Source of the DNA: Oceanibaculum indicum P24
GTDB taxonomy: Bacteria > Pseudomonadota > Alphaproteobacteria > Oceanibaculales > Oceanibaculaceae
Direction: 5' to 3'
DNA: 64,000 bases
Assembly: GCF_000299935.1 (NCBI RefSeq)
Contig: NZ_AMRL01000011.1
Span: forward strand, 1-64,000
Shown here: piece by piece, positions 1,884-18,070 of the stretch
How positions within the stretch are numbered: the first letter of the stretch is position 1
How the letters are laid out: each line of letters opens with the position of its first letter
Notes under the pieces: model-generated
Database searches by the model: none
What the model saw: the letters and a program-made list of their open reading frames with translations, nothing else
Told to the model about the DNA's origin: nothing
Position numbers and translations under genes: made by a program

Positions 1884-1973
1884 GGATGGGTGGCCGAGCG
1901 GTTTAAGGCACCGGTCTTGAAAACCGGCGTGGCAGCGATGTCACCGTGGGTTCGAATCCCACCCCATCCGCCA
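1884..1973 (+). tRNA. tRNA-Ser (anticodon UGA)
   Basis: The acceptor stem GGATGGG (1884-1890) pairs with CCCATCC (1963-1969). G is the discriminator and CCA at 1971-1973 is encoded. The anticodon loop CTTGAAA places TGA at 1918-1920. A long variable arm (about 1928-1947) and GGTTCGAATCC T-arm make this a class II serine tRNA. The gene is intact although a mobile element is integrated at its 3' end, because the element supplies the same terminal 20 bases. Confidence 0.96.
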
Positions 1974-1975
1974 TT
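1956..1975 (+). repeat. attL core (3' end of tRNA-Ser)
   Basis: These 20 bases end the tRNA (T-arm 3' strand, acceptor 3' strand, CCA, plus TT) and are repeated exactly at 18223-18242. The next base differs (T here, C in the other copy) and the base before differs as well, so the repeat limits are sharp. Confidence 0.93.
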
Positions 1976-2310
1976 TTTTATTGTAAGTATAAGTTTTTAA
2001 AAGACATTTTTTCCTAGTGTCGTCTCTACCCCAGTTTCAACCCACAAATTCCGTCCAAACAAGGCCGAACAGGTTCGGACAAAAAGCAATAATTGTGCCG
2101 GATTGTTGTTCCGTTGGTGCATGTCAGAAATTCCGATAATGCGGATCTCGGCAGAACTCCGGAAAATCAATACGTTATAAATAACCATACAAAAATTGCG
2201 ATGAACAGAACTCATATTATATACTAATTATGAGAAAAACTCATTTTTAGTAACATTGTTGCATGCCGTCCGTTCCAGTACGATTTGGCAAATCCGGAAC
2301 GGAGGTAAAA
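1976..2310. promoter_or_regulatory. AT-rich left end of the element with palindromes (no clear gene)
   Basis: This 335-base stretch is far richer in A+T than the host. It holds a perfect palindrome CCGAACAGGTTCGG (2065-2078), an ACCCACAA at 2040-2047 that matches repeats near the integrase, and ACTCAT/ATGAG half-sites at 2210-2215 and 2230-2244 just before the Xis-like gene. A 72-codon open frame on the minus strand (1997-2215) has no family resemblance and I do not call it a gene. Likely roles are integrase arm sites and the promoter or operator of the Xis-like gene. Confidence 0.5.
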
Positions 2311-2511
2311 ATGAGTAAAGAAAATGTGAAAATTGAGAGTGACGATTACTTGATCCGCGCGGGAATTGCGATGAGGCGTCTGGATATTAGCAGGAGTAAG
2401 TTCTACGAGATGGTGAACGCCGGGCACCTGAAGACTGTGAAAATCGGTCAAATCCGCTACGTCCGAGCCAGCGTGCTCGAGGCGGCTATCCAGGACGGCA
2501 TCGAGTACTGA
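2311..2511 (+). CDS. AlpA/excisionase-like small HTH protein
   Basis: The 66-aa product has a MerR/AlpA-like winged helix: a helix pair around RRLDISRSKFYEMVNAGHL followed by the wing KIGQIRYVRASVLEAAI. This is the usual layout of helix_turn_helix_17 proteins, which act as excisionases or as activators of integrase and excision in P4-like elements and PICIs. The start at 2311 has a strong Shine-Dalgarno GGAGG five bases upstream. A longer frame begins at 2263 but lacks a ribosome site. It is the first gene inside the left attachment site, behind a stretch with ACTCAT/ATGAG inverted motifs that may be its operator. Confidence 0.85.
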   Translation: MSKENVKIESDDYLIRAGIAMRRLDISRSKFYEMVNAGHLKTVKIGQIRYVRASVLEAAIQDGIEY

Positions 2512-2601
2512 ACTACCGATTTAGTATGCCGGCGGCTCCCAACGTCGCCCCCCTTTTTACATAGCTGAGACCCAACCGCAGCGCAACTCGGAGTTGCGAG
2601 A

Positions 2602-2805
2602 ATGCTTCCTGTTGCCGAAATCGCCAATCGTCACTTGCTCGAAACCGCTCTGCGCGCCATTGAGTACGGCGGCATAAAGGCCAGCCATACTAGCTTGAGC
2701 CACGATGAGCGCGCCGAAGCCCTGGCATCTGGACTTCGATGCCTTGTTCTCGCTGGCCAGGCCGGCTGCCGCCCCGACGACGCGGAGGGCCAGGGCGATG
2801 AATGA
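2602..2805 (+). CDS. Small hypothetical protein upstream of dnaB
   Basis: This 67-codon frame begins with ATG behind CGGAG at a usable spacing and ends with its stop overlapping the first codons of the helicase gene (start 2798), an arrangement that often reflects translational coupling. The predicted protein starts with an amphipathic helix (EIANRHLLETALRAIE) and ends acidic. I do not recognise a family. The alternative is that the helicase starts at the in-frame ATG at 2705, which would make most of this frame non-coding. Confidence 0.4.
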   Translation: MLPVAEIANRHLLETALRAIEYGGIKASHTSLSHDERAEALASGLRCLVLAGQAGCRPDDAEGQGDE

Positions 2806-4234
2806 ATCCGCTGCCCTGCCCGATCCGCGCGCCCAGCCCTACCGCATCCCGCCGCATAATCGGGAGGCCGAGCAGGCGCTGCTGGGCGCCATCCTGATCA
2901 ATAATGGCGCCTATGAGCGGGTGTCGGAGTTCCTGCAGAAGGATCATTTCGCCGATCCGGTGAACGGCCGCATCTATGAGGCCTGCGGCAAGCTGCTCGA
3001 GCGCGGCCAGATGGCCAACCCGATCACCCTGAAGAATTTCTTCGACCAGGATGGGTCGCTGGCCGATGTCGGCGGCGCGCAATATCTGGTGAAGCTGGCG
3101 GCCTCGGTCGTGACCGTGGTGAATGCGGAGGATTACGGCCGCACCGTCTATGACCTCTATCTGCGCCGGCAGCTGATCGATTTCGGCGAGACGGTGGTGA
3201 ACGAGGCCTTCAAGCATGATCTCGACGCCACTGCCGAAAGCCAGATCGAGGCGGCGGAGGAAAAGCTGGCCGGGCTGGCTGAGCGAGGATCCGCTGAGGG
3301 AGGATCGAGACCGATTGCAGCCGCCCTTGCTGGTATGGCGACAGAAGCGGCGGAAGCGCGGAAGCGCGGCGGCAATGCACTTGGGCTCGAAACGGGCCTC
3401 GCTGACCTGGATCGAATATTGGGCGGCATGGCGCCGGGCAACCTCATAACGATGGGCGCCCGGCCCGCGATGGGCAAAAGCGCCCTGGCCTGCTGCATCG
3501 CCCGCCATGTTGCCGCGACTGGAACCGGCGTTGGTTTCTTCTCGCTAGAGATGCGCGCAGAAGAAATCGCGCAGCGGCTGGCCGCCGATGCGACCGAGAT
3601 CGCGTATGATCGCATCAGGCGCGGTGCCCTTGACGACGATGAATACGCTCGCCTTAAAGACGCCGAGCGCCGGCTGTCTGGACTGCCACTTGAGTTTGAT
3701 GATACCGCCGGGCTCGCCATCGGCCAGATTCGCGCCCGTGCACGCAGAATGAGGCGTCGGCGCCGTGTCGGGCTGATCGTCATCGATCACCTGCACCTGG
3801 TCCGCAGCAGCGGCGAGAACCGGCTTCAAGAACTCCGCCGAATAAGCAGTGGACTCAAGGAGATGGCGCGAGAACTTGAAGTGCCTGTCCTTGCGCTGTG
3901 CCAGTTGAATCGAGGCGTCGAAGGGCGCGAGGACAAGCGCCCGCAGCTTTCTGACCTACGCGAATCAGGCAGCATCGAGCAGGACTCGGATGCCGTAATT
4001 TTTCTCTACCGCAGATCGTATTACCTCGAAAGAGAGCAGCCGCAGCGCCGAAGCGGAGAAGATCAGATTGCGTACACCGGACGCCTTGCTGACTGGTCAG
4101 CGTCCGCCGCCGCCGAGCGGAACAAGGCCGAGCTGATCGTTGCCAAGAATCGCCACGGCCGAACCGGCATGGCGGCGGTTTTTTGCGACCTCGCGTTGTC
4201 GCGATTCCGTAGCTTAGCGCCTGAACGGAGCTGA
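2798..4234 (+). CDS. dnaB: Replicative DNA helicase, DnaB family (element-encoded)
   Basis: The 478-aa product has the DnaB N-terminal domain (about residues 18-135, beginning PPHNREAEQALLGAIL) and the RecA-like helicase domain with Walker A GARPAMGKS at 220-228. Further on are the Walker B-like LIVIDHLHL and the conserved LRESGSIEQDSD region. It would unwind the element origin, loaded by the initiator encoded directly downstream. I chose ATG 2798 (GGAGG ten bases upstream). An in-frame ATG at 2705 would add 31 residues. By eye the N-terminal third has host-like codon use and the rest looks less biased, which may hint at recombination with a chromosomal dnaB; codon counts per half would test it. 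Confidence 0.93.
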   Translation: MNESAALPDPRAQPYRIPPHNREAEQALLGAILINNGAYERVSEFLQKDHFADPVNGRIYEACGKLLERGQMANPITLKNFFDQDGSLADVGGAQYLVKLAASVVTVVNAEDYGRTVYDLYLRRQLIDFGETVVNEAFKHDLDATAESQIEAAEEKLAGLAERGSAEGGSRPIAAALAGMATEAAEARKRGGNALGLETGLADLDRILGGMAPGNLITMGARPAMGKSALACCIARHVAATGTGVGFFSLEMRAEEIAQRLAADATEIAYDRIRRGALDDDEYARLKDAERRLSGLPLEFDDTAGLAIGQIRARARRMRRRRRVGLIVIDHLHLVRSSGENRLQELRRISSGLKEMARELEVPVLALCQLNRGVEGREDKRPQLSDLRESGSIEQDSDAVIFLYRRSYYLEREQPQRRSGEDQIAYTGRLADWSASAAAERNKAELIVAKNRHGRTGMAAVFCDLALSRFRSLAPERS

Positions 4235-4236
4235 CC

Positions 4237-5109
4237 ATGGCCGGGTTTTACAAGATGTACCGTGGTTGGCTCAACCACCCGGCCCTGGCCGGCGCCAACG
4301 AGCCATTTTGCCGCCGTGCCGCATGGTGTTGGCTGATCGACGGCGCTGCATGGCAGTCGAACGGCGACCTAGATCGCGGTCAACTGTCAGCCTCGCTGAG
4401 GCATCTAGCCGCCACCTGGCGATGGTCAGTGGGTGCCGTTCGGCGCTTCCTTGAGCGCCTCGAGAAAGACGGCATGATCGTCGCAGAGACCGGCACAGGG
4501 CAGATGGTCATAACCGTCTGTAACTACGACATTTATCAGGCCGCCACTGAAGAGACCGGCACACCCCCGGCACAGCAACCGGCACAGCAACCGGCACACC
4601 TTGATGAAAAAACCGGCACAGCAACCGGCACACCGAAAGCCGCAGAAACTCTATTGTTTCCGGTCGAACCCGGCACAGCAACCGGCACACCTTCTCGCGA
4701 AAACCGGCACAGCAACCGGCACACAAACCGGCACAATAATATAAAGAAAAGAAAGAATCTAAATATCGGCGATCTGGAAGCGAGCTTCGAAGCGTGGTGG
4801 AAGCACTGCCCCCGCAAGGTCGGCAAGGGCCAGGCGCGCCAGGCCTACCGAGCCGCGCTCAGCAAGGCGACGGCTGAGGCGCTGGTCGAGGGCATCCTCC
4901 GCTATGCCGGGCAGGTGGCCGACCGGGACGGGCAGTTTATCTGCCACCCTTCAACCTGGCTACGCGGCGAACGCTGGCTCGATCAGGACGCCACCGCCCC
5001 GCCATCGGCCGACGACCAAGAATTCGACCGAGCGGTCGCCGCTGCGGCGGCTGCCGGCCCCGAGGCCCTGAGAGATTTTCTCAGCAAACAGCAGGAGACC
5101 CCCCGATGA
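4237..5109 (+). CDS. Phage-type replication initiator with internal iteron origin
   Basis: The 290-aa protein has an N-terminal winged-helix-like region (about residues 45-100, ending RRFLERLEKDGMIV). A low-complexity linker (about 107-166) follows. The C-terminal module FEAWWKHCPRKVGKGQARQAY...HPSTWLRGERWLDQ resembles the end of lambda O/DnaT-like initiators, whose common pattern is YPRKVGK..HPATWLNxxRW. The linker is encoded by eleven CCGGCACA repeats read in all three phases, followed by an AT-rich tract. This matches the lambda arrangement in which the origin lies inside the O gene. The protein probably binds these repeats and recruits the DnaB encoded 3 bases upstream. The stop overlaps the next start (ATGA). 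Confidence 0.85.
   Translation: MAGFYKMYRGWLNHPALAGANEPFCRRAAWCWLIDGAAWQSNGDLDRGQLSASLRHLAATWRWSVGAVRRFLERLEKDGMIVAETGTGQMVITVCNYDIYQAATEETGTPPAQQPAQQPAHLDEKTGTATGTPKAAETLLFPVEPGTATGTPSRENRHSNRHTNRHNNIKKRKNLNIGDLEASFEAWWKHCPRKVGKGQARQAYRAALSKATAEALVEGILRYAGQVADRDGQFICHPSTWLRGERWLDQDATAPPSADDQEFDRAVAAAAAAGPEALRDFLSKQQETPR
4556..4735 (+). repeat. Iteron array (11 x CCGGCACA), candidate origin of replication
   Basis: Exact CCGGCACA copies start at 4556, 4567, 4579, 4591, 4613, 4625, 4670, 4682, 4704, 4716 and 4728. Within clusters the period is almost always 12 bases, with a common unit ACCGGCACAGCA. An AT-rich tract at 4736-4770 follows directly and could be the unwinding element. The same unit is translated as TGT, as PAQ and as NRH in different clusters, so the DNA rather than the protein repeat appears to be conserved. 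Confidence 0.85.
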
Positions 5110-5309
5110 CCGACACGACCCCCGCCGCCACCGCACGCCGGGCGATTGCCGACTTGATCCGACAGGGCGGTTTGAGCCCGTTGCAGGCCCTTCGCCTAGT
5201 CTATGCTTGGATCGTCGTCTCGGACCTGGACCAACCCCATCCGGCCGCACCTGACCGCGCCAAACTCAACGGCGCCGCCGCTCCCAAGGAAGAAACCCAT
5301 GCCTGCTGA
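5106..5309 (+). CDS. Small hypothetical protein
   Basis: A 67-aa product whose start overlaps the stop of the initiator gene (ATGA), so it is probably translationally coupled to it. A helical segment ATARRAIADLIRQGGLSPLQALRLVYAWIV is followed by a Pro/Ala/Lys-rich tail. No family is recognised. Its 3' end overlaps the next gene's start (5299) by 11 bases, which supports a tight replication operon. Confidence 0.6.
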   Translation: MTDTTPAATARRAIADLIRQGGLSPLQALRLVYAWIVVSDLDQPHPAAPDRAKLNGAAAPKEETHAC

Positions 5310-5676
5310 ACAGACACACAACCCCGACCGTGCTGAGCTCATTCGCTGGACCATTAGCGTTATGCTCCCGATGTCCTGGCCGGATCGGTGGAAAGTTCTG
5401 GCCGGTATCGCGCAAAGCTGCCTTCCTGCCGCTATGGCCGCGACTGAAGGTCATCTGGACGCGGCTCGCGAACTGGTTGGCGGCGAAATAGCCGAGCTGA
5501 TCGAGCAAATGCCGGACGCTGCCGGGCCGGTGAAGTGTCGCTGGCACGCCCTGGCACTGGGTCTCAGCGGGAACCGACGGCACCAGGACGCCGGCCGGCG
5601 CTGGTTCGAAGCGCACCCGCATGAAGCCGCCATCCTGGACGCGGAGCTGGAGCGTCTGAACAGCACCACACACTAA
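5299..5676 (+). CDS. Hypothetical phage protein in the replication operon
   Basis: The 125-aa product starts at ATG 5299 behind AAGGAAG at good spacing. A longer frame from 5203 would lie inside the preceding gene and encode a low-complexity N-terminus, so I reject it. The protein is mostly helical and acidic in its middle (ELVGGEIAELIEQMPDAAG), and ends with a His-containing helix. I see no catalytic motif. It is the last gene of the replication block before an AT-rich spacer. Confidence 0.65.
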   Translation: MPAEQTHNPDRAELIRWTISVMLPMSWPDRWKVLAGIAQSCLPAAMAATEGHLDAARELVGGEIAELIEQMPDAAGPVKCRWHALALGLSGNRRHQDAGRRWFEAHPHEAAILDAELERLNSTTH

Positions 5677-5685
5677 GTCCAGACG

Positions 5686-5715
5686 ATGATTTAAAATCAT
5701 TGGAAGTAATGATTT
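5686..5715. promoter_or_regulatory. ATGATTT palindrome plus half-site
   Basis: A perfect palindrome ATGATTT-A-AAATCAT at 5686-5700 is followed by another ATGATTT at 5709-5715. It lies in the AT-rich gap before the 5787 gene and could be an operator or promoter element. Confidence 0.4.
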
Positions 5716-5786
5716 AAAAACAACTAATAAAATGAATTTCCCTGCGGTAACATATGAACAGTTCAAATCAGGAGCAGGGGGATTCA

Positions 5787-5966
5787 ATGTTCAATGCAGA
5801 TAAATTTCTTATGAAGCCGACGACAAAAATTAACACCATCGTCAGCAAGCTGAAACGAATGGAGCGAATTGCCGAATCTTCCGAGATTCCACCAGAGTGG
5901 ATTGCCGCCATTCGGAGGGATTTTCAGGTCATTACAACAAATGATAAACCACATAAGATTGAGTAA
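5787..5966 (+). CDS. Small hypothetical protein from AT-rich island
   Basis: A 59-aa basic protein beginning MFNADKFLMKPTTKINT, with helix IVSKLKRMERIAESSEI. The start at 5787 is preceded by a G-rich Shine-Dalgarno (AGGGGG, about 6 bases away). An upstream in-frame ATG at 5754 has no obvious ribosome site. The codon use is far more A/T-rich than the surrounding genes, suggesting separate acquisition. Palindromic TGAGT/ACTCA motifs overlap its stop codon. It may be a small regulator, but the sequence does not prove this. Confidence 0.55.
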   Translation: MFNADKFLMKPTTKINTIVSKLKRMERIAESSEIPPEWIAAIRRDFQVITTNDKPHKIE

Positions 5967-6017
5967 TACTCATATTTCTGAGTAATATGACAATTACTCA
6001 TAATGATAAAAACTCAT
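5960..6017. promoter_or_regulatory. Cluster of TGAGT/ACTCA palindromes
   Basis: TGAGT-AAT-ACTCA is at 5960-5972, TGAGTAAT-N6-ATTACTCA at 5979-6000, and a further ACTCAT at 6012-6017. Together they form a run of inverted repeats before the portal gene. ACTCAT/ATGAG motifs also lie upstream of the Xis-like gene (2210-2244), so one element-encoded regulator may bind both regions. Confidence 0.5.
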
Positions 6018-6038
6018 AACTGACATTTTTACTTGACT

Positions 6039-6081
6039 CACACCCCACATGCATTGAACGATTTAATGCGTGTGGGGTGTG
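6039..6081 (+). promoter_or_regulatory. 17-bp stem-loop just upstream of the portal start
   Basis: The arms 6039-6055 and 6065-6081 are complementary over 17 bases with one G-U pair and a 9-base loop. The structure ends five bases before the ATG at 6086 and would hide the ribosome-binding region. There is no T-run after it, so it is not an ordinary terminator. It could be a translational switch or a protein-binding operator in front of the structural operon. Confidence 0.6.
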
Positions 6082-6085
6082 TTTC

Positions 6086-7291
6086 ATGAAATTTCTTCGA
6101 AAACTCCTGGGTCTTGAAACCCGTGGTGACGGCAGCTGGGGTGAGCTGGAGCGGCTGCTGACGGCCGCCAGCGCGACGGCCGCCGGCCTCAGCGTCTCGC
6201 CTGAAAGCGCCCTGCGCTGCCCGACCGTCGCCGCCAGCGCCCGCATCCTATCCGAGTCCGTAAGCCAGCTGCCCTTGCACCTGTTCCGCCGGCTTCCCGA
6301 GGGTGGCAAGGAACGGGCTGACGACCATCCGCTAGCCGCCCTGGTTGCCTCTGCCCCAAATTCCTGGACCACAAGCGCCGAATGGCGCGGGACCGCCATG
6401 ATGCAGCTCGCGCTGCATGGCGAGGCATTTTGCTGGGTGGGGCGCGCACGCGACCGGGTCGTCGAGATTGTCAACATCCCGGCCGGCGTCATTTCGGTGT
6501 CTTGGTCGGATTCAGGCGAACCGAGCTTCACCGCAACGACCAGCAGCGGCACGAAGCGCCCCGTCGCGCGCGAGGAGCTGCTGTGGCTCCGCCTGCCCGG
6601 CCCGAACCCGCACAAGCCGCTGTCGCTTGTGGCGGAGGCGCGCGAAGCCATCGCCCTCAGCTTGGCGATGGAAGGCTACGCGAGCCGCCTGTTCGCCAAG
6701 GGCGCGCGGCCTTCCGGCGTGGTAAAAGCCCCTGGCAAGCTTACCGACCAAGCTATCGCTCGCCTGAAGGCCAGCCTGACCGCCCTGCACTCCGGCACCG
6801 AGTCGGGAGGCACCGCTGTCTTCGAGGAGGGCATGACCTTCGAGGCGCTGCAGTTCAGCAGCGTCGATTTGCAATTTCTGGAGCTGCGCCGGCACCAGAT
6901 CGCCGAAATCGCTCGCGTTTTCCGCATCCCGCTCCACCTTCTGCAGGAGCTCGAGCGGGCGACCCACAACAACGCCGAGCATATGGGCCAGCAGTTCCTC
7001 TCGTTGGTGGTGCTGCCCTTGCTGGCGCTGTGGCGCCAGGCGCTTGAACGCGATCTTCTGACAGAAGCCGAGCGCGCTGAATACTTTTTCGAGTTCGAGA
7101 CGGCCGATCTTGCGCGAGCCGACCTGGCCGCCCGCTTCAACGCCTATGCGCAGGCCGTGACGAACGGCTTGCTGAATCCGAACGAAATTCGCGCGCTGGA
7201 AAACCGCCCACCCTATGCCGGCGGTGATGAATTCCATCGCCCGCTAAACACGGCCGCTACCGGCCAGGGCCAGGGGGCCGCCAATGGCTGA
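6086..7291 (+). CDS. Phage portal protein, HK97/lambda type
   Basis: The roughly 401-aa product starts MKFLRKLLGLETRG. It shows the standard HK97 portal segments: an ALRCPTVAASARILSES-type start, LPLHLFRR, the DHPLAALV..PNSWTT stretch, a central MEGYASRLFAKGARPSGV, and the C-terminal FRIPLHLLQ/THNNAEHMGQQF region. Portals form the dodecameric DNA gate at the capsid vertex and dock terminase and connector. ATG 6086 is preferred to an upstream GTG at 6077, which lies in the hairpin arm. The stop overlaps the start of the MuF-protease-capsid gene, so the two are coupled. Confidence 0.93.
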   Translation: MKFLRKLLGLETRGDGSWGELERLLTAASATAAGLSVSPESALRCPTVAASARILSESVSQLPLHLFRRLPEGGKERADDHPLAALVASAPNSWTTSAEWRGTAMMQLALHGEAFCWVGRARDRVVEIVNIPAGVISVSWSDSGEPSFTATTSSGTKRPVAREELLWLRLPGPNPHKPLSLVAEAREAIALSLAMEGYASRLFAKGARPSGVVKAPGKLTDQAIARLKASLTALHSGTESGGTAVFEEGMTFEALQFSSVDLQFLELRRHQIAEIARVFRIPLHLLQELERATHNNAEHMGQQFLSLVVLPLLALWRQALERDLLTEAERAEYFFEFETADLARADLAARFNAYAQAVTNGLLNPNEIRALENRPPYAGGDEFHRPLNTAATGQGQGAANG

Positions 7292-9569
7292 CCCTGCCGC
7301 CCTGATCGCGCGTGAAGCCGACCGGCTGACCGAGGCGCTTCTAGCTGTCGCGCGCGAGGCCGTCGAAGCCGCCCTTGCCGCCGACGCCGCCCCGACGGTG
7401 CCCGCCATCGTCGCCGCGCTCGAGGATCTACTTGCCATCCTGCCGCTCCGCCTCGTCGAGGTGGTGAATGAGGCGCTGCCGGAGATCGCACAGCGCGCCA
7501 TCGCGGAAGCCGAGGCCGAAATCGTCGACGCCCGCGAAGCGTCCGGCGAGCCGTTCCCCGAAGTCCCGCTACCGCCGACGGGCAATTTCGCCGACTGGTC
7601 ACGCACTGCGGCTGAGACGATGATCGCCAATCTGACCGAGGCTACCGTCGAAGCCGAAAGCGCCGAAGCTGCGCGCGGTGCGGTCCTGGCCGCCCTGGCC
7701 GGCGCTGCCGCCGCGCAGCTTGCAGCAATGGCCGATACCGGAGCCGCGCGGATGGTGAACGCGGCGCGCGTCAGCGCCTTCGGCGCCAACCGCGATATAG
7801 TCGCGAAAGTCCGCGTCCGGACAGTGCCGGATGCCGACAGGTCCGAAGTCTGCACTTATATGAATGGCGCGGAATTCTCGCTCGATGGCCGCCCGGTGCC
7901 GACGCCGCCCTTCCATGCAAATTGCCGTTCGACTCTGGTCCCGGTCCTGGCTTCCGCCGGCCGCCGCGCCGCGCCGGAAACGCTGGAGTTGCGTTTCGCG
8001 CCGGCTGACGTCAGCACCGCCGGCAGCTTCTCTGGAATCGCCCTCGCCTATGACGTGCTCGACGCCCACGGCACCGCGTTCGCGCCTGGCTGCTTCGCTG
8101 CTGCCATCGCCGAGCGCCGCGCCGCCGGGCAACGGTTCCCCATCCTGCTGCACCATGATCCAGAGCGAGTTGCTGGCGTCGTGACTGAGCTTCGCGACAC
8201 CCGGGACGGGCTCGCGATCGAGGGGCGCTTCCTTCTCGAGACCCGCGACGGCACAGAAGGCTATGCCCTGGCCAAAAGCGGCGGCATGGCCCTGTCGGTG
8301 GGCTTCAAGCGCCTTGCCGACCAGCCTCGTCCCGGCGGCGGCCGCACCATCACCCGCGCCAGGCTGGCGGAGATATCGCTAGTCGCTGTCGCATCGAATC
8401 CCCGCGCTCGGTTGACCGAGGTGCGGAGCCAAGCCGACCCCAGCCGGCAAGACCATGAAGAGGAGAAAATCATGGAAGACGAGAACACGAACACCGGCGG
8501 GGCCGAAGAGACCCGCACGACCGCGGACCTCACGACCGTCACCACCTCGGTGAGCGCGCTCGAAAAGCGTCTCGACAAGATCGAAGCTCGCAGCGCTCGC
8601 GCCGGCCTGTCCGGGGGCGATGAAGGCGCTGGCGACCAGCTCGAAACGCGCTCTTTCACGCACTTCCTCCGCCGGGGCCGTGAGGCCATGGGGGCGGACG
8701 AAGTGCGATCCCTTCGCACATCGGACGACACTGCCGGCGGCTATCTTGCGCCAGATCAGTTTGTGGCAGAGCTGCTTCGTAACCTGGTGCGGTTCTCTCC
8801 GATTCGCTCGGTGGCGCGCGTCGCGAACACCAATGCGGGCGCGGTAATCCTGCCGAAGCGGACTGGCACGCTGACCGCGCAGTGGGTAGGCGAAACCGGC
8901 GCGCGTCCGGACACCGCCCCGACCTACGGTCAGAACAGGTTCCCGGTGTGCGAGGTCGCCTGCTATGTCGATGCATCGAACGCCATGCTCGAGGATTCCG
9001 CTCTCGACATCGCGGGTGAGCTTGCCTTCGACTTCGCAGAAGAGTTCGGTAAGGCGGAGGGCAGTGCCTTCGTCGATGGCGCCGGTGCGCTTCAGCCGGC
9101 TGGATTCATGAATGATGATGACATTCTCAACACCGTCAGCGGTGAAGCTGCCGCCATCACCGCTGACGGTCTGATCCAGCTCTACCACGACCTGCCGGCG
9201 GCCTATCGCGCCAATGCGACGTGGTGCATGAACAGCAACACCATCGGTACGGTCAGCAAGCTGAAGGACGGCACGAGCGGTCAGTACCTGATGATGACTC
9301 AGGGCATAGCTAACGCGCCCGCAACAACTCTGCTGGGTCGCCCTGTCATCGAGGCTCCGGACATGCCAGACATCGGGGCGGGCGACTTCCCGGCGATCTT
9401 CGGCGACTTCAGCCAGTTCCGGATTTTCGACCGGATCCAGCTGTCTGTGCTTCGCGATCCATACAGCCAGGCCGCCAACGGCATGACTCGTTTCCATGCC
9501 CGGCGCCGTGTCGCCGCTGGCGTCGCCAAGTCCGAGGCCTTCCGTAAGCTCAAGATCGCCAGCAGCTAA
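7284..9569 (+). CDS. Fusion of MuF-like minor head protein, HK97 prohead protease and major capsid protein
   Basis: One 761-aa frame contains three normally separate head proteins. Residues 1-220 end with the MuF signature (VRTVPDADRSEVC...PTPPFHANCRST). Residues about 235-380 are a U35/HK97 prohead protease with the conserved His near 291 (HHDPE), Ser near 338 (LSVGF) and the EISLVAVASNP strand. Residues 397-761 are an HK97-fold capsid protein (GGYLAPDQF, FSPIRSVARV, WVGETGARPDTAPTYGQ). A perfect AGGAG six bases before an in-frame ATG at 8472 suggests the capsid part is also made on its own. The protease would cut the fusion and the scaffolding delta region during maturation. Confidence 0.92.
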   Translation: MADPAALIAREADRLTEALLAVAREAVEAALAADAAPTVPAIVAALEDLLAILPLRLVEVVNEALPEIAQRAIAEAEAEIVDAREASGEPFPEVPLPPTGNFADWSRTAAETMIANLTEATVEAESAEAARGAVLAALAGAAAAQLAAMADTGAARMVNAARVSAFGANRDIVAKVRVRTVPDADRSEVCTYMNGAEFSLDGRPVPTPPFHANCRSTLVPVLASAGRRAAPETLELRFAPADVSTAGSFSGIALAYDVLDAHGTAFAPGCFAAAIAERRAAGQRFPILLHHDPERVAGVVTELRDTRDGLAIEGRFLLETRDGTEGYALAKSGGMALSVGFKRLADQPRPGGGRTITRARLAEISLVAVASNPRARLTEVRSQADPSRQDHEEEKIMEDENTNTGGAEETRTTADLTTVTTSVSALEKRLDKIEARSARAGLSGGDEGAGDQLETRSFTHFLRRGREAMGADEVRSLRTSDDTAGGYLAPDQFVAELLRNLVRFSPIRSVARVANTNAGAVILPKRTGTLTAQWVGETGARPDTAPTYGQNRFPVCEVACYVDASNAMLEDSALDIAGELAFDFAEEFGKAEGSAFVDGAGALQPAGFMNDDDILNTVSGEAAAITADGLIQLYHDLPAAYRANATWCMNSNTIGTVSKLKDGTSGQYLMMTQGIANAPATTLLGRPVIEAPDMPDIGAGDFPAIFGDFSQFRIFDRIQLSVLRDPYSQAANGMTRFHARRRVAAGVAKSEAFRKLKIASS
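8472..9569 (+). CDS. Major capsid protein from internal start (HK97 fold)
   Basis: Internal in-frame initiation at ATG 8472, preceded by AGGAG at 8461-8465, would give a 365-aa capsid protein. An acidic, probably coiled-coil delta-like region (residues about 1-80) precedes the shell domain. This is the usual length for an HK97-family capsid. Separate initiation would let capsid copies greatly outnumber the MuF and protease parts, as head assembly requires. Confidence 0.7.
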   Translation: MEDENTNTGGAEETRTTADLTTVTTSVSALEKRLDKIEARSARAGLSGGDEGAGDQLETRSFTHFLRRGREAMGADEVRSLRTSDDTAGGYLAPDQFVAELLRNLVRFSPIRSVARVANTNAGAVILPKRTGTLTAQWVGETGARPDTAPTYGQNRFPVCEVACYVDASNAMLEDSALDIAGELAFDFAEEFGKAEGSAFVDGAGALQPAGFMNDDDILNTVSGEAAAITADGLIQLYHDLPAAYRANATWCMNSNTIGTVSKLKDGTSGQYLMMTQGIANAPATTLLGRPVIEAPDMPDIGAGDFPAIFGDFSQFRIFDRIQLSVLRDPYSQAANGMTRFHARRRVAAGVAKSEAFRKLKIASS

Positions 9570-9597
9570 CCGGCCTGACGCCTGACCTGTAACAGCC

Positions 9598-9617
9598 CCG
9601 CCGGCTGCGGCCGGCGG
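9598..9617 (+). promoter_or_regulatory. GC hairpin between capsid and decoration genes
   Basis: CCGCCGGC pairs with GCCGGCGG across a TGCG loop. It lies between the capsid stop and the AAGGAG of the next gene and has no T-run. It may stabilise the abundant capsid mRNA or attenuate read-through. Confidence 0.4.
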
Positions 9618-9637
9618 CGGCGCCAAGGAGAAAAACG

Positions 9638-10054
9638 ATGCGCGATTCCGCACAAAATCTGAAGCCGGTCCTGGTGCTGGCACCCGCCGCCAATGCCGAT
9701 ATCGGCACCACGCCGCTTGTCGGTACCGTGATCGACCGGCAGGGCTTCGACAGCCTGACCTACATCATCACCACCGGCGCGCTGACCGATGCGAATGCAT
9801 CGTATGCCGTGTTGCTCGAGGAGTCCGACGTTTCGAACGATGGCTTCACCGCCGTCGCGGACACCGACCTCATCGGCACCGAAGCCGCTGCCGGATTCGA
9901 CTTCGAGGATGACGGTGCGGTGCGCAAGCTCGGCTACATCGGCAACAAACGCTACACGCGCCTGACGATCACCCCGACCGGCGCCGACAGCGGCAACAGC
10001 CCGATTTCGGCCGTCGCCATCCTGGGCCATCCGCTGGCCGCACCGGTCGGCTAA
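9638..10054 (+). CDS. Conserved phage head protein, possible capsid decoration protein
   Basis: The 138-aa product follows the capsid gene and has a good ribosome site (AAGGAG). It appears beta-rich, with TITPTGADSGNSPISAVAILGHP near the end and a central VRKLGYIGNKRYTRLTI. Proteins with this ending are common next to HK97 capsids in alphaproteobacterial phages. Position and length suggest a decoration or stabilising role, but the sequence shows no direct proof. Confidence 0.7.
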   Translation: MRDSAQNLKPVLVLAPAANADIGTTPLVGTVIDRQGFDSLTYIITTGALTDANASYAVLLEESDVSNDGFTAVADTDLIGTEAAAGFDFEDDGAVRKLGYIGNKRYTRLTITPTGADSGNSPISAVAILGHPLAAPVG

Positions 10055-10201
10055 CCGAGACGTTGACCGCCGGAGAACGAGGCCGCGCGATCCGGCCTGG
10101 CGTACTAAGCTTCCCTGATGTGCGGCGGCGGTCAGCTGCGGATTTGACCCGCCAAGGGAGGCGAGATCGACACAGCCAGCAGCGATCGCGCTGGCTGGCC
10201 T

Positions 10202-10239
10202 GCCGGCGGCGGCTGCGCCCCACCACAGCCGCCGCCGGC
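10202..10239 (+). promoter_or_regulatory. Perfect 14-bp GC hairpin upstream of connector gene
   Basis: GCCGGCGGCGGCTG (10202-10215) is exactly repeated inverted at 10226-10239 with a 10-base loop, in the 209-base gap before the connector gene. Part of the arm (GCCGGCGGCGGC) also occurs in the hairpin region after the capsid gene. No T-run follows. It may be a transcript-stability or attenuation element. The rest of the gap shows no convincing gene. Confidence 0.45.
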
Positions 10240-10263
10240 CCCTTCTACCTCAAGGTGATCGCC

Positions 10264-10854
10264 ATGATCGAAGTCCTGACCCCGCCTGAAACCGCCCTGG
10301 TGAGCTTGGCCGCCGCCAAGGCCCATCTGGGCGTGACCGGCGATGATGATGACGCAGCCATTGAAGGCCTGATCGCCCGCGTAAGCACGATCATCATCAC
10401 CTACATCCGCCGCCCCATCCTGGCCGGCAGCTATCTCGAGACCGTCACCACGAACGGCTCGCAACTGTCCGTTGCGCTGTCGCGCTTCCCAGTCAGCAGC
10501 ATCACAAGCGTGAAGCTCGACGGCTCGACCGAGGCGATGGACAGCGAAAGCTACAGTATCGACACCGAGTCCGGCCTGCTGCTTCGCGTGGACAGCTTCG
10601 GGCTCCCCATCGCCTGGGGCCGGCACTCTGTCGCCGTGACCTATGAAGCAGGCTACGCCGATACGCCCGCTGACGTGCAGCACGCTGCTTTGACGCTGAT
10701 CGGCGCCGAATGGGCGACGAAGGGCCGTGATCCGTCGCTGAAAAGCATCGGGATCGGCTCTATCGCGCTCGGCTACTTCACCGCTGATGCTCTGCCCGGC
10801 CTAGCGTCTGTGTCGCACCTGCTCGAGCCCTACCGGCCGCCGGCCATCGGGTAA
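10264..10854 (+). CDS. Head-tail connector protein, gp6-like
   Basis: The 196-aa product begins MIEVLTPPETALVSLAAAKAHLGVTGDDDDAAIEGLIARVS, the classic start of the HK97 gp6/YqbG connector family. A YIRRPI segment, a beta domain and a C-terminal helix (AALTLIGAEWATKGRD) follow. This family forms the ring below the portal that joins head and tail. I chose ATG 10264 with AAGGTG upstream. The frame is open further upstream, but that part lies in hairpin-rich intergenic sequence. Its presence in an element without tail genes means the head is built to accept a tail. Confidence 0.85.
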   Translation: MIEVLTPPETALVSLAAAKAHLGVTGDDDDAAIEGLIARVSTIIITYIRRPILAGSYLETVTTNGSQLSVALSRFPVSSITSVKLDGSTEAMDSESYSIDTESGLLLRVDSFGLPIAWGRHSVAVTYEAGYADTPADVQHAALTLIGAEWATKGRDPSLKSIGIGSIALGYFTADALPGLASVSHLLEPYRPPAIG

Positions 10855-10858
10855 CGCC

Positions 10859-11266
10859 ATGGCCTTCCGCGCTCCCACGATCTGCAGCCGCTGCCGCAAG
10901 CCCAGGCCTGCCGGCCAACGGTGCACCTGCACGCCGGAGCCGCGTCGCCCCGATACCGGCCAGCCGGACCGCGCCAAGCCGTACTCTACCCCCGAGTGGA
11001 AAGCCCTGAGGGCGCAGCACCTGAAACGCCAACCGACGTGCCAGTCTTGCGGCGCGAGTGCTCGAATGGTTGATCACATACGCCCCTGGAAGGGTGACGC
11101 GGCGCTGTTTCTCGACCCCAACAACCTCCAGTCGCTATGTCATCGCTGCCATTCACGCAAAACGGCAAGCCATGACGGCGGCTTCGGCAATCCGACAGAA
11201 CAGAAGCCCGGCTGCGATGCCAGTGGAAGACCTCTCGACCCTCAACATCCCTGGAACCGATCCTGA
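10859..11266 (+). CDS. HNH endonuclease (packaging-associated)
   Basis: The 135-aa product has two CxxC zinc pairs near the N-terminus and around CQSCGA, followed by the HNH core MVDHIRPWKGD...LFLDPNNLQSLCHRCHSRKT. HNH proteins beside terminase genes in HK97-type phages help terminase cut cos DNA. Here the gene sits directly before the small terminase gene, as expected, and four bases after the connector stop. It could alternatively be a homing endonuclease, but the short size and location favour the packaging role. Confidence 0.92.
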   Translation: MAFRAPTICSRCRKPRPAGQRCTCTPEPRRPDTGQPDRAKPYSTPEWKALRAQHLKRQPTCQSCGASARMVDHIRPWKGDAALFLDPNNLQSLCHRCHSRKTASHDGGFGNPTEQKPGCDASGRPLDPQHPWNRS

Positions 11267-11271
11267 AGGGA

Positions 11272-11319
11272 GGGGGGGGCGAATATTTCCCTTGGGGGGC
11301 GGCTAACGCGGCGGGGGGG
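11272..11319 (+). repeat. Three G-tracts before terminase (possible cos/pac or G-quadruplex)
   Basis: Runs of 8, 6 and 7 G residues lie at 11272-11279, 11294-11299 and 11313-11319 in the short gap between HNH and the small terminase gene. Packaging start sites are commonly located here. G-quadruplex formation is possible. This is suggestive only. Confidence 0.3.
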
Positions 11320-11361
11320 CATCTTTTCGAGATTCTGGAATTGAGCAAATGGGGGTAGGAC

Positions 11362-11766
11362 GTGGCAAGAGGCCGGAAACCAGCGATAAAGGCGACGGCG
11401 GAGGGCATCGGCAAGGCCCCGCCCGCGCCTGCCTGGTTGCCGCCTGAAGCCAAGAGCGAATGGCGCCGGGTTTGGCCCGGCCTAGCTGCCCGCAAGACCA
11501 TTACCACGCAGGACCTGGCCGCCCTGGAGGCCTATTGTCTTGCCGTCGGCACTGCGCGGCGCGCTCAAGCTGCGATCACGCAGGACGGTGATATCATCAA
11601 GACGGAATATGGTCCGAAGCGTCATCCTTCCTTTCAAACCCTCTTCCAATCGATGACCGAAGCCCGTCGCCTTGCTGCTGAGCTTGGATTGACGCCCGCC
11701 AGCCGCCACAAGGCCGGCAGCGCCGCCCCGCAGGAAAACGACGACCTCGCGGACCTCGACCTATGA
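11362..11766 (+). CDS. Terminase small subunit, P27 family
   Basis: The 134-aa product starts at GTG 11362 with a GGTAGGA ribosome site directly upstream. It reads ARGRKPAIKATAEGIGKAPPAPAWLPPEAKSEW, then a helical region with TTQDLAALEAYCLAVGTARRAQ and GPKRHPSFQ. This is the P27/TerS pattern: a basic N-terminal DNA-binding part and a helical oligomerisation part. It would recognise the packaging site and present DNA to the large subunit. The stop overlaps the large subunit start (ATGA). Confidence 0.9.
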   Translation: MARGRKPAIKATAEGIGKAPPAPAWLPPEAKSEWRRVWPGLAARKTITTQDLAALEAYCLAVGTARRAQAAITQDGDIIKTEYGPKRHPSFQTLFQSMTEARRLAAELGLTPASRHKAGSAAPQENDDLADLDL

Positions 11767-13373
11767 CCGCGCCCGCAACTCATCCGGCCTGGCTGTTCGA
11801 CGGCTCCAAAATCCCCGACCCACTCGGGTACGGCCAGCGTGCGGTCGAATTCCTGAAGGTGCTGCGTCACCCGAAATCCACTGCCGAAGGGCGCCGGCTG
11901 CAGCTTGCCGATTTCCAGGACCAGATCGTCCGCCGCATCTATGGCCCGCGGCACCCCGACGGCCGGCGGAAGGTCCGGACGGTCTTTATCCTGCTGCCGC
12001 GCGGCGGCCGCAAGACGACGCTGGGGGCCGGGCTGAGCCTGCTCCACTTCATAGGGCCGGAGCGCGTGCCGGGTGGCCTGGTCCTCAATGCGGCCTCCGA
12101 CCGGGAGCAAGCCCGCATCGCGTTTGAAGAAGCGGCCGGCATTTGCCAAGAAGATCCCCGGATCGCCGGAAAGCTGAATTTCGTGTCGTACCGCCACCGC
12201 CTCGAACATCCGAAGAGCGGCACCGTCCTGCGCGCGATCAGCTCCGACGCCGGCCGGCAGCACGGCCTGACGCCAGCCTTTGCGCTACTTGATGAACTGC
12301 ACATCTGGCCGAGTCGCGAGCTGTTCGACGTCATACGCACCGGCCTCACCAAGACCGCCGAATCGCTGCTCGTCATCATCACCACGGCCGGCAGAGGCCA
12401 GGAGAACATTGCCTTCGACTTGTACAGCTACGCCCGCAAAGTCGCCTTGGGCGAGGTCGAGGATGAGGGATTCCTGCCGATCCTGTTCGAGGCCGGCCCT
12501 GAAGAAGACTGGCGCGACGAAGCCGTCTGGCGCCGGGTGAATCCGGGGCTCGACCTCGGCTTCCCCGACATCGAGGGGCTGCGCCAGCTCGCGCGCGAGG
12601 CGGATGAACGGCCGGCGGATCGTGAGGCGTTCAAACAGCTTCACCTCAACGTCTGGCTGGATCATTCGGCGGCGCCATTTGTGGACGGCGACACCTATGA
12701 TCGCGGCAGCGCGCCGGTCGATCTGGCGGCTATGAAGGACCATCCGTGCTGGCTGGCGGTGGACCTCTCGAGCGTCCGCGATTTGACCGTGGTTCTGGCC
12801 TGTTGGCGTCTGCCCGATGACGCGCTGGCCGTCTGGCCCTGGTTCTTCTGCCCGGCCGACGCCCTGCGGCAGCGGTCCGAACGGGACCGCGTGCCATATA
12901 CCCTGTGGGCCGAACAGGGCTACATCACCCCGACGCCCGGCGCCTCGGTGGAATACGGCGCTGTCGAAGACAAGATCCGAGACCTCTGCGACGAGTTCGA
13001 TGTGCGCGAAATCGCGTTCGATCCCTATCTCGGACAGCAAATGATGACCGCCCTTGGCGAAGACGGGTTGCCCGTGGTGGCAATGCGCCAAGGCTCGCTG
13101 ACAATGGGGCCGGCCATCCGCGACCTGGAACATGCGATCATCGGCGGCCGGCTGATTCACGGCGGGCACCCGGTTCTTCGCTGGAACTTCAGCAACGTTG
13201 TGGTCGAGACGGACCGCGCCGGCCTTCAGCTGTTTTCCAAGGGGAAGGCACGGGACCGGATCGACGGCGCCGTGGCGTGCGCAATGGCGGTCTCCCGCGC
13301 GATGGTGGGCGATGGTGGACGTTCAGTCTATGACGATGAAACCGCGCGGCCGGAAGGGCTGCTGATCCTGTAA
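11763..13373 (+). CDS. Terminase large subunit, HK97 gp2-like
   Basis: The 536-aa packaging motor has an N-terminal ATPase with a Walker A variant LPRGGRKTT at 78-86 and a Walker B ALLDEL at 174-179. The coupling motif LLVIITTAG follows. The C-terminal RNase H-like nuclease begins at LAVDLSSVRDLT (about 330) and has a later acidic stretch EIAFDPYLG and DRIDGAVA. The length is typical of intact Terminase_1 proteins. It would cut concatemers, dock on the portal and pump DNA. It lies downstream of the capsid genes, whereas HK97-like phages usually place terminase before the portal, so the module order is permuted. Confidence 0.94.
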   Translation: MTAPATHPAWLFDGSKIPDPLGYGQRAVEFLKVLRHPKSTAEGRRLQLADFQDQIVRRIYGPRHPDGRRKVRTVFILLPRGGRKTTLGAGLSLLHFIGPERVPGGLVLNAASDREQARIAFEEAAGICQEDPRIAGKLNFVSYRHRLEHPKSGTVLRAISSDAGRQHGLTPAFALLDELHIWPSRELFDVIRTGLTKTAESLLVIITTAGRGQENIAFDLYSYARKVALGEVEDEGFLPILFEAGPEEDWRDEAVWRRVNPGLDLGFPDIEGLRQLAREADERPADREAFKQLHLNVWLDHSAAPFVDGDTYDRGSAPVDLAAMKDHPCWLAVDLSSVRDLTVVLACWRLPDDALAVWPWFFCPADALRQRSERDRVPYTLWAEQGYITPTPGASVEYGAVEDKIRDLCDEFDVREIAFDPYLGQQMMTALGEDGLPVVAMRQGSLTMGPAIRDLEHAIIGGRLIHGGHPVLRWNFSNVVVETDRAGLQLFSKGKARDRIDGAVACAMAVSRAMVGDGGRSVYDDETARPEGLLIL

Positions 13374-13385
13374 CGGAGGGCGATT

Positions 13386-13763
13386 ATGGGCTTGCTCGAT
13401 GATGGAAAACTGGCCGCGACGGTGGCGGCGGCGCTGCAGAACGTCGCCTATTCGGTGACGCTGACTCGCACCGTGCCGGGCGCTTACGACCCCAGCACTG
13501 GCACGGTAGGAGCTGGCACCACGACGAACTACACTTGCCGAGGCCTGGTCGAGGATTTCTATTCGATGACGCTGCAGAAGGCCTCCGCCTATCTGGACGG
13601 GACCATGGTCAAGCCGGGCGATCGTCAAGCTCTGATCCTGGCCACGACACTGGCGACGACGCCGAAACCCGGCGACACCTTTACCGCTCAGGGCCGCCTG
13701 CACACCGTCATCAGCGTCTCCGCTGACCCTGCCGGGGCAACCTGGACCATCCTGATTCGTTGA
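13386..13763 (+). CDS. Head-closure/connector-like phage protein
   Basis: The 125-aa beta-rich product begins MGLLDDGKLAATVAAAL and contains a VPGAYDPSTGTVGAG segment, a mid-domain, and the ending ISVSADPAGATWTILIR. Small proteins with this layout follow the terminase or connector genes in rhizobial and rhodospirillal phages and are usually annotated as head-tail joining. An AGGG-type ribosome site precedes the ATG. It is the last plus-strand gene of the head module and faces the minus-strand genes. Confidence 0.7.
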   Translation: MGLLDDGKLAATVAAALQNVAYSVTLTRTVPGAYDPSTGTVGAGTTTNYTCRGLVEDFYSMTLQKASAYLDGTMVKPGDRQALILATTLATTPKPGDTFTAQGRLHTVISVSADPAGATWTILIR

Positions 13764-13766
13764 TGC

Positions 13767-14039
13767 CTAGTCCAGAAGCGACGGCTCTTCTCCCTCCAGA
13801 AGTGATGATCCCTCTCCCTTCCGCGCAGTATTTGTGGCCCGCTCGGCATAATCGAGGGTATCCAAGGCCTCGACGGCAATCTCGTCGGCAAGATCGAGAA
13901 TGCGGATAAGAGCATCCGGCGCGACACCCACAGAGTCCAAGGCACGCCGCGCCTTTCTCGAGCTCAGGTGTGCTTGAAGAACCAGGCGTGCCTCTGCGAT
14001 GGACGCCTGAGTCGATAGGATCTCATCTCGGACCAGCAT
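13767..14039 (-). CDS. Hypothetical 90-aa acidic helical protein
   Basis: The gene starts at ATG 14039 with GAGG six bases upstream and ends almost touching the head-closure gene on the other strand. The protein is mostly helical (LVRDEILSTQASIAEARLVLQAHL...LIRILDLADEIAVEALDTL) and acidic. I do not recognise a family. It follows the 14048 gene with an 8-base gap and is the end of a three-gene minus-strand unit that begins with the tape-measure gene. Confidence 0.6.
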   Translation of the reverse strand: MLVRDEILSTQASIAEARLVLQAHLSSRKARRALDSVGVAPDALIRILDLADEIAVEALDTLDYAERATNTARKGEGSSLLEGEEPSLLD

Positions 14040-14047
14040 TTCGACCT

Positions 14048-14671
14048 CTAGAACTCGTGGATTGTCTTTATTCTTATGATGTCAGGCGTTATCTCCATCG
14101 CCTGAAGATGCCCGCCAATGCCGACCCCACCGCCGCATTCTATTGCTTGCGCCGCCATCATTTTGCGCTGAGCACAGGCAGCTCTAATCGCTTGCTCGAT
14201 AGTCATGGACTTCGGAAGCGGGACGGCTGCTCCTGGCGATGGCGCCAAGTGGACGCCTCGCTCTAGCTCGACTGGCATGAAATCGTTGATGTTGTAGCTC
14301 AGGCGGAATGCCTGAATTCGCGTTCTGTCGGAGGATCTGCCAGCGATTAACATCTCGCCAAGCTCTGGCCTATCTGCATCAGCTACGCCCAGCTCATTGA
14401 TCCGTTGCGAAAAGTGCCTGGCACTCTCGCAAAGAACACCCGGCAACAGCTCGATAGCTGATTCGAATGTGCGAACCTCTCCCCCTTGCAGGAAGCTGTA
14501 CGCTGCGTAGTGAATGCCAGCTAGGCCGCGAAAAATGAAACCGCAATGAAGGTGCGATAGCACTTCCAGCTTCGAGTGCCGGCCCACTTCTTCTCCGGTA
14601 AAATCACAAAGCACTGTGTCAGAAAATAAGACACAAGACTTATCATCAAGACATACGTTCGCCAGAGTCAT
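14048..14671 (-). CDS. Hypothetical protein, possible Ntn-hydrolase (proteasome-like) fold
   Basis: The 207-aa product starts MTLANVCLDDKSCVLFSDTVLCD, continues with SKLEVLSHLHCGFIFRGLAGIHYAAYSFL, and near the end has GGGVGIGGHLQAMEITPD. An N-terminal Thr/Ala strand, a central D-x-SD turn, a small-residue loop before a helix, and a final GG-hydrophobic strand recall the self-cleaving proteasome/HslV-like group found in some phages. I place this at the level of fold suspicion only. Its start overlaps the tape-measure stop, so the two are translated together. It could be a tail accessory or a cargo gene. Confidence 0.6.
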   Translation of the reverse strand: MTLANVCLDDKSCVLFSDTVLCDFTGEEVGRHSKLEVLSHLHCGFIFRGLAGIHYAAYSFLQGGEVRTFESAIELLPGVLCESARHFSQRINELGVADADRPELGEMLIAGRSSDRTRIQAFRLSYNINDFMPVELERGVHLAPSPGAAVPLPKSMTIEQAIRAACAQRKMMAAQAIECGGGVGIGGHLQAMEITPDIIRIKTIHEF

Positions 14672-16554
14672 GCTGGCCTCTCGGCACTCAGGAAAATATT
14701 GACAAACTCTCTTCTGAGTTTCCGCTGATATTTCTTTCTTACACCCTTGGCTGGTGTGGCGATGACATCGTCAAGCGCCTTAAGCATTTCCTGCGCCTGG
14801 GATCGAACTGAGGCGATCTGTCGGGCCAACTGAAGCTCTTCCTGTGCCAGACTTGATGTCAGGTCGATGTTGCGGCGCTTCAGGTCGAGCTCGGTCCGCA
14901 GTACGGCCAGGCCAACAGCACGCTCTTGTGCTGTTGCCCCGACCAGTTCGAGTTCGCGCTGCGCAAGGGCGAGATCATCCCTCATGTCGACAATTCGACG
15001 CTGAGAATCGATCTCCTTGTTCAGGTCTCGGATGCTGGCAGTGAGCCCCCTCACCTGATCATGCAGTTCGGACCCTTGCGCGATATCAGCGGCGCGCGCT
15101 TTTTGCAGCGCCTCATAGCTGAGCTCTACAGCCTCAATAGACTGTCCATGGCCGGCGTAAGCCGCGCTGAGCGCGATCAAGTGATTGACCTCATCGCCAA
15201 GCGATTCGATCAATGAACGCTGCTGCTTCGTCATATCCGAAACGACAGGCAGAGCTTCCTTTGCGGCCTCGCTCAAACTACCCAGCGCCTTTTCGGCAGC
15301 AGGGCCCAGATTGGTCCAGGCGGCGATCATGGCGTTCCCAGAATCCTGCAGTTCCTTGCCTGCCTTCCGGAACGATTCGAGACCGCCGCTGAAATCGAGC
15401 TTCGCCAGCTTGCTGAGCGCTTCGATCAGCCGAACGACGTACATAACGGTGCCGGAAACGCTCTCGCGGATCGTAACCCAGATCGCGTTCATTACATTGC
15501 CGACGCGGACTGAGACGCCTCCGATCTCCTCTACATGATCGCGATATGCGACCATCAGGCCAATGACGGTCGAGATCGCCACTGCGATGAGCGTGAACGG
15601 GTTCACAGCGAGAGCGGCCGTCCAGGCGCGCGTCGCGATCGCGGCGACATCGATCGCCGTCGCCACCTTCAGAATTGCGACCGTGGCCACGCCGGCCGCA
15701 AGGCCGGCCAGGACATCTAGATTGTCTGACAGCAGGATGACCGCGCCGGCCAGAGCCGTAGTCACGCCCAGAGATGAGTCGGCGTTCTTGATGAAGTTTC
15801 CCCACGCATTGTCGAGCACGGTCAACGCCTGCCCGACGGTGACAGGCACGGTTCCGAAACGCTCCTCGATCTGATCCGCGCGGCTCAGCACGGCCCGGAA
15901 GATCGCCTCCGAGGTAAGCTTTCCCTCCTCAGCCAGGCGGCGAAGTTGCCCGACCGTCGTGCCCATGCCGGCGGCGATCTCGATAGCCAGTCCGTTCAGA
16001 TTTTCCAGCACAGATCGCAGCTCATCGCCGCGCAACGTGCCGCTGGCCAGGGCCTGACCTAGCTGAATTATGCCCGCGGACGCCTCTTGTGCGCTGGCGC
16101 CCGAGGTGATGACCGCTTTCGCGGTCAGCTCGGTAAAGCGCAGCAATTCCTGCTGTGAGGCTCCGAGTTGGTCGGACGCGCGCGCTGTGCGGGCGTAAAG
16201 CTCCGCCGTGCTCAGATAGGCAGACCGCGTTCGTTGCGCGATCTGGAAAACCTGATTCTGGACTGAAACGAGCTCTCGCTGAGAGTTGGTGACCAGCTTG
16301 AGGCGACCTTCGACCAGTTTCCAGGCATCCGCATACTCAATGATTCTCTGGATGCCCAGCGCTGCCGCTGTGCCGAGGATCAACCCCTGAATCATACGAA
16401 GAGGGCCCAGCGTGGCATTGATTTGCCGCTGCATGCCTTCGAAAGCGGTCTCAGCACGCTTGCCAGAAGCCGCCATGCGGTCAAGGTTCCGCGCGCCGGT
16501 TGCGGCCTGCGAGGAATCGACCTTGATGCCGAGAGTAGCGATATCGACTGACAT
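14668..16554 (-). CDS. Phage tail tape-measure protein (orphan tail gene)
   Basis: The 628-aa product starts at ATG 16554 (MSVDIATLGIKVDSSQA) and carries the tape-measure N-domain: LRMIQGLILGTAAALGIQRIIEYADAWKLVEGRLKL, then TRSAYLSTAELYARTARASDQLG and GIIQLGQALASGTLRGDELRSVLENL. Hydrophobic segments follow around 290-360, and a long helical/coiled C-terminal part extends from about 460. Such proteins set tail length. A longer frame to 16632 reads through a terminator-like hairpin, so I reject it. No chaperone, tube or baseplate gene accompanies it. It lies on the strand opposite the head genes. It may be a remnant, or it may act on a helper's tail. Confidence 0.88.
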   Translation of the reverse strand: MSVDIATLGIKVDSSQAATGARNLDRMAASGKRAETAFEGMQRQINATLGPLRMIQGLILGTAAALGIQRIIEYADAWKLVEGRLKLVTNSQRELVSVQNQVFQIAQRTRSAYLSTAELYARTARASDQLGASQQELLRFTELTAKAVITSGASAQEASAGIIQLGQALASGTLRGDELRSVLENLNGLAIEIAAGMGTTVGQLRRLAEEGKLTSEAIFRAVLSRADQIEERFGTVPVTVGQALTVLDNAWGNFIKNADSSLGVTTALAGAVILLSDNLDVLAGLAAGVATVAILKVATAIDVAAIATRAWTAALAVNPFTLIAVAISTVIGLMVAYRDHVEEIGGVSVRVGNVMNAIWVTIRESVSGTVMYVVRLIEALSKLAKLDFSGGLESFRKAGKELQDSGNAMIAAWTNLGPAAEKALGSLSEAAKEALPVVSDMTKQQRSLIESLGDEVNHLIALSAAYAGHGQSIEAVELSYEALQKARAADIAQGSELHDQVRGLTASIRDLNKEIDSQRRIVDMRDDLALAQRELELVGATAQERAVGLAVLRTELDLKRRNIDLTSSLAQEELQLARQIASVRSQAQEMLKALDDVIATPAKGVRKKYQRKLRREFVNIFLSAERPA

Positions 16555-16579
16555 GTCGGGGCTCGATTTCAGCGCCCGA

Positions 16580-18057: not shown

Positions 18058-18070
18058 CTAAGAAAAACTC

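Follow-up and report, generated by a model that had tools for sequence, protein, structure and literature searches.

The 64-kb window analyzed here, the first 64,000 nucleotides of Oceanibaculum indicum P24 contig NZ_AMRL01000011.1, contains a putative replication initiator gene (4237-5109, plus strand) in which one short sequence recurs many times, raising the question of what such repeats do inside a coding region. The exact octamer CCGGCACA occurs in 12 copies within this gene, one at 4490 and 11 within 4556-4735. The first copy (4490-4497, plus strand) lies in the codons for T85-T87 of the predicted wing. The others, also on the plus strand, start at 4556, 4567, 4579, and 4591 (cluster 1, 4556-4598), 4613 and 4625 (cluster 2, 4613-4632), 4670 and 4682 (cluster 3, 4670-4689), and 4704, 4716, and 4728 (cluster 4, 4704-4735), giving start-to-start spacings from 4556 of 11, 12, 12, 22, 12, 45, 12, 22, 12, and 12. 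The whole window holds 17 matches to the octamer against 4.0 expected, and 0/100 shuffles reach 17; the initiator gene accounts for 12 of the matches. The paired-unit pattern CCGGCACANNNACCGGCACA has no other occurrence in the 3.95-Mb genome. Directly after the last unit is a 34-nt AT-rich tract (4736-4769), a putative unwinding element, which translates as an Asn/Lys-rich run; GC is 0.38 in the bin 4710-4769 and mostly 0.6-0.75 in the surrounding region. An initial annotation made from the sequence alone had described eleven exact units mostly 12 bp apart, all within the initiator gene and followed directly by an AT-rich tract. These positions and spacings were borne out, but the annotation missed the 12th copy at 4490, by which the array reaches into the wing.

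The 290-aa product was assigned by PHROG profile matches and an AlphaFold model. It consists of a winged-helix domain (aa 1-104), a linker encoded by the array (aa 105-175), and a C-terminal primosomal/initiator domain (aa 179-257), such that the array sits over the linker between the two domains. The model of aa 1-110 (pLDDT 86) contains helices at 54-61 and 65-77 and strands at 81-85 and 90-94; the helix at 65-77, which includes V65 and R69 and is encoded at 4429-4467 on the plus strand, is the predicted recognition helix. In profile searches the best family was PHROG 270, "replication initiation protein" (3.3e-31, aa 48-266), and phrog_2514 was matched at 3.9e-16 (aa 1-175). Further matches were to PHROG 186, 9327, and 391. 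DnaD-like, primosomal, and lambda-O-like families ranked lower, the O-like phrog_391 (7.5e-6) and phrog_345 (5e-4) being weaker than phrog_270. The match to the PHROG 270/186/2514 group, the DnaD-like helicase loaders and replication initiation proteins of Caudoviricetes, spans both the winged-helix and C-terminal parts, and judged by these profiles the initiator belongs to this phage group. The protein has no significant match in a PDB sequence search, and a fold search with its model gave no hit at E below 0.001, most of the matches being generic winged helices. The immediate upstream neighbor of the initiator gene encodes a phage-type DnaB replicative helicase (2705-4234, plus strand; PF03796 3.6e-85, PHROG 19 6.5e-107).

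Both genes are carried by a 16.3-kb integrated element (1956-18242) bounded by a 20-bp direct repeat, ATCCCACCCCATCCGCCATT, at 1956-1975 and 18223-18242, the left copy of which overlaps the 3' end of a tRNA-Ser gene (1884-1973). The element contains an integrase gene (16804-18057, minus strand), an excisionase-like HTH gene (2263-2511), and packaging, portal, capsid, and head-closure genes. Among the element genes checked, the sole tail gene was that of a tape measure protein (14668-16632, minus strand; PF20155 1.5e-62), which is encoded on the opposite strand adjoining the integrase, and lysis genes were not found. The element is a capsid-carrying satellite or a truncated prophage. A 761-aa ORF at 7284-9569 gives head-morphogenesis, head-maturation-protease, and major-head-protein family matches in succession and is apparently a polyprotein in which three head functions are fused.

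The repeats are indifferent to the reading frame of the gene that contains them. All three frames are used by the 12 units (3/6/3): those at 4490, 4556, 4613, 4625, and 4682 are translated as TGT and that at 4670 as PGT, those at 4567, 4579, and 4591 as PAQ or PAH, and those at 4704, 4716, and 4728 as NRH, which bears out the TGT, PAQ, and NRH translations first noticed in different clusters. When codons are shuffled with the protein preserved, the best 8-mer averages about 3 copies and 0/200 shuffles reach 12. A 55-nt block at 4579-4633 (plus strand) is repeated at 4670-4724 with 50/55 identical nucleotides, in frame 0 in one copy and frame 1 in the other, and the encoded peptides PAQQPAHLDEKTGTATGT and PGTATGTPSRENRHSNRH match at 1/18 residues in an ungapped comparison. 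Since the blocks are near-identical in DNA and differ in frame, the array appears to have grown by duplication, with its peptide being rewritten. The main constraint on the array-coding DNA appears to be binding in cis rather than the encoded peptide.

Only two weak relatives of the initiator besides the window's own were found in 142 host-related genomes, and relatives were therefore drawn via alignments from IMG/VR and GTDB. Profile-guided scans of these genomes yielded 354 loci with the winged-helix domain, reduced to 150 representatives at 80% identity, of which 147 were testable. Repeats beyond codon shuffles at p<=0.01 were present in 112/147 of these divergent relatives, where about 1.5 would be expected by chance, as measured by a statistic that includes a phased-spacing bonus favoring 11/12-bp spacings; 35/147 had no array at this threshold. 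Plain copy counts without the bonus were significant in 82/147, with the same spacings. Under the bonus statistic the spacings were chiefly 11 (234), 12 (70), 23 (41), 22 (18), and 24 (15) bp, and of 227 plain-count spacings 153 equal 2 modulo 3 and only 57 are divisible by 3. Of the 112 arrays, 93 use three frames, 17 use two, and 2 use one. A subgroup (L016, L049, L089, L091, and L092) is an exception to three-frame use, with GATAC-type units in a single frame at multiple-of-3 spacings, mostly 12 bp. The initial annotation had proposed selection on DNA rather than peptide and suggested comparing linkers across relatives, with conserved peptide over degenerate DNA as the outcome that would count against it. 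The opposite was seen: each gene keeps its DNA unit at a phase of about 11 bp, which is not a multiple of 3, and together with the codon shuffles this supports the proposal. Its 12-base repeat does not hold family-wide, where the units consist of a core of 7-8 bp at 11- or 12-bp phasing and not of a fixed 12-mer.

The arrays of the 112 relatives are polar: 568 cores have the orientation of the gene and 14 the opposite one. Core density is 6.2/kb in the initiator gene versus 0.08/kb in the flanks; inside-gene counts are favored by construction here because the core was picked from within each gene. An AT-rich 40-bp stretch follows the array in 111/112 (AT 0.65 versus 0.44 in the gene). The wing-coding stretch contains an exact core copy in 94/112, with none elsewhere in the winged-helix domain, indicating that the array starts within the DNA-binding domain, breaks off over a conserved coding block, and continues in the linker. 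Arrays are carried by Staphylococcus phages StB27 and phi575 (unit AAAGACA), Bacteroides phage BS-TP2 (unit GGGCACA), and Vibrio phage 1.135 (unit GGCAAGC), whose records annotate the proteins as loaders, replication proteins, or hypothetical proteins. Phages phiSP119-2, A403, and vibriophage 1.276 fall below significance on plain counts, and Lactobacillus phage Lc-Nu has three GTGTCCA copies close to the linker. A DnaB-like gene was found beside only 23/111 related initiators, for which only short flanks were available. The C-terminal parts of the relatives are only 9-33% identical to that of the window initiator, with matches spread over various initiator, primosomal, and loader families, as if C-terminal parts had been exchanged across the linker.

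When the units of relatives are aligned they have the common form CG-xyz-CA, in which xyz is variable. In a mutual-information scan V65 and R69, both in the predicted helix 65-77, rank first for unit base y and near the top for z and x, alongside wing columns. For wing columns 86-87 the correlation is a trivial one, these residues being themselves encoded by a unit, and it was disregarded. At residue 69, Asp (24/24), Ala (7/7), and Glu (10/10) occur with y=G, Gln with T in 5/6, and Arg with C in 37/47; at residue 65, Lys or Arg usually occurs with z=A and Glu with G. Exceptions to the match between helix and unit include L272 (Gln, CGGGACA) and L194, L201, and L204 (CGGGGCA). Across 54 sister pairs V65 was the best of 105 columns (p=8.7e-6, uncorrected for the number of columns), with kinship only partly controlled: the relatives are non-independent, and pairs with the same helix residues are somewhat more alike overall (0.69 vs 0.60 identity). 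Among relatives less than 50% identical outside the helix and wing, the one nearest by recognition helix has the same core triplet in 53/112 cases; the figure is 16/112 when the nearest is chosen on the rest of the domain, and 14/112 for a random relative. We regard this covariation as the strongest evidence that the initiator reads the repeats in its own gene.

Taken together, the frame use of the DNA, the family-wide arrays, their polarity, the AT-rich tract, the helix covariation, the initiator families matched, and the DnaB neighbor suggest that the array is very probably the replication origin of the 16-kb integrated phage-like element, located inside the gene of its own initiator. From the anatomy, polarity, and covariation of the arrays we infer a mechanism in which winged-helix monomers would line up along one face of the DNA, each on a 7-8 bp unit and roughly one per helical turn, and the resulting monomer filament would strain and open the AT-rich tract. 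Replication would then be started by the C-terminal domain together with the phage DnaB helicase of the neighboring gene. The linker peptide may be mainly filler, in which case units could drift between frames provided that the DNA core and phasing are kept, and the initiator would carry its own binding site wherever the gene moves.

The array might act in copy control or autoregulation, either in place of initiation or alongside it. Plasmid iterons often do both jobs, acting as origin and as control, and the covariation can at most establish that the units are cognate binding sites, which fits either role. We nevertheless consider it unlikely that the initiator-bound array is an operator or copy-control locus, acting by autorepression or handcuffing, and not a melting origin, given that the AT-rich tract adjoins the array on the same side in nearly all relatives with arrays, as in the lambda origin, and that the array lies mid-gene, far from a promoter position. 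If the linker were disordered and unconstrained, neutral tandem slippage or duplication would account for the 55-nt block, which is clearly duplicated within the array, and for the low complexity of the linker peptide. It would not produce an exact core in the conserved wing and nowhere else in that domain, phasing near multiples of 11 bp, a fixed orientation, or a core that tracks the recognition helix across divergent relatives; we rejected this very improbable explanation on these grounds. A third reading takes the repetitive linker peptide (TGT or PAQ repeats) as the selected feature and the DNA repeats as its by-product. It would suit the single-frame arrays of L016, L049, and L089, but is scarcely credible for arrays that mostly use three frames at spacings mostly not multiples of 3, and was rejected for the window gene, where peptide-preserving codon shuffles destroy the repeats and the duplicated blocks agree in DNA and not in residues.

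A replication origin within an initiator gene has precedents in lambda ori, within gene O, and in the RepA_N gene of pSK41. In lambda, the origin lies in the middle of gene O, where O dimers bind four iterons, each an 18-bp inverted repeat, and an AT-rich tract of about 40 bp comes next (PMC7466680, PMC5043065). The parallel with lambda drawn in the initial annotation holds for this layout, in which lambda and Stx-phage O genes have iterons and then an AT-rich tract mid-gene, and O-like PHROGs match the window initiator at the E-values given above. The four lambda iterons (L373, gene O) lie in frames 0, 2, 2, and 1; frame indifference is therefore already visible in lambda and is not by itself new. 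The lambda iterons are 20-24 bp apart, in contrast to the 12 asymmetric 8-bp direct units of the window, mostly 11 or 12 bp apart and one of them in wing codons, and the neighboring gene encodes a P-type loader in lambda and DnaB itself in the window. The units do not take the form of 18-bp inverted repeats serving as dimer sites, and in the 112 relatives few cores lie on the reverse strand.

RepA_N plasmid initiators (pSK41, pTZ2162) likewise have a winged-helix N-domain and repeats in the rep gene. Structures 4pql and 5kbj, which we take to be RepA_N N-domains, had the highest query TM-score (0.52) among the matches listed in the fold search. In pSK41, the N-domain binds repeats inside rep, and the protein can do without the linker that the origin encodes (PMC5703833). 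The RepA_N domain PF06970 was detected neither in the window protein nor in 60 relatives, and the Rep_3 initiator domain PF01051 (F, P1, RK2 type) was not detected in the window protein. The putative array origin would work like those of lambda and RepA_N but is a member of neither class, as both 18-bp dimer iterons and the RepA_N domain are missing. A search of openly accessible literature returned the lambda and RepA_N analogues, but neither a description of arrays or an internal origin in this winged-helix initiator family nor a binding, melting, or replication experiment on it. On the sequences compared here, what appears to be new is the short polar units of about 11 bp, the wing copy, the breadth of occurrence, and the helix-to-iteron code.

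These results probably extend to a large uncharacterized family of phage winged-helix initiators, with arrays traced in alphaproteobacterial, Staphylococcus, Bacteroides, and Vibrio phages, with frame-indifferent monomer iterons phased at about 11 bp inside the gene and a CG-xyz-CA helix code. In this code base y would be set by the residue that follows the conserved helix Val, R69 in the window protein (D/A/E giving G, Q giving T, and R giving C), and base z by helix residue 65 (K/R giving A and E giving G). If so, the origin and replication compatibility group would be predictable from sequence alone, including in uncharacterized phages and satellites. Each sequenced member with an array would record an initiator and its probable binding site in one gene, so that more than 100 natural protein-DNA pairs can be read and the recognition code of a winged-helix initiator becomes testable. 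The family would also explain the odd three-frame repeats in the linkers of proteins often annotated as hypothetical, and would provide an example of coding DNA that is apparently constrained mainly by binding in cis and not by the peptide it encodes.
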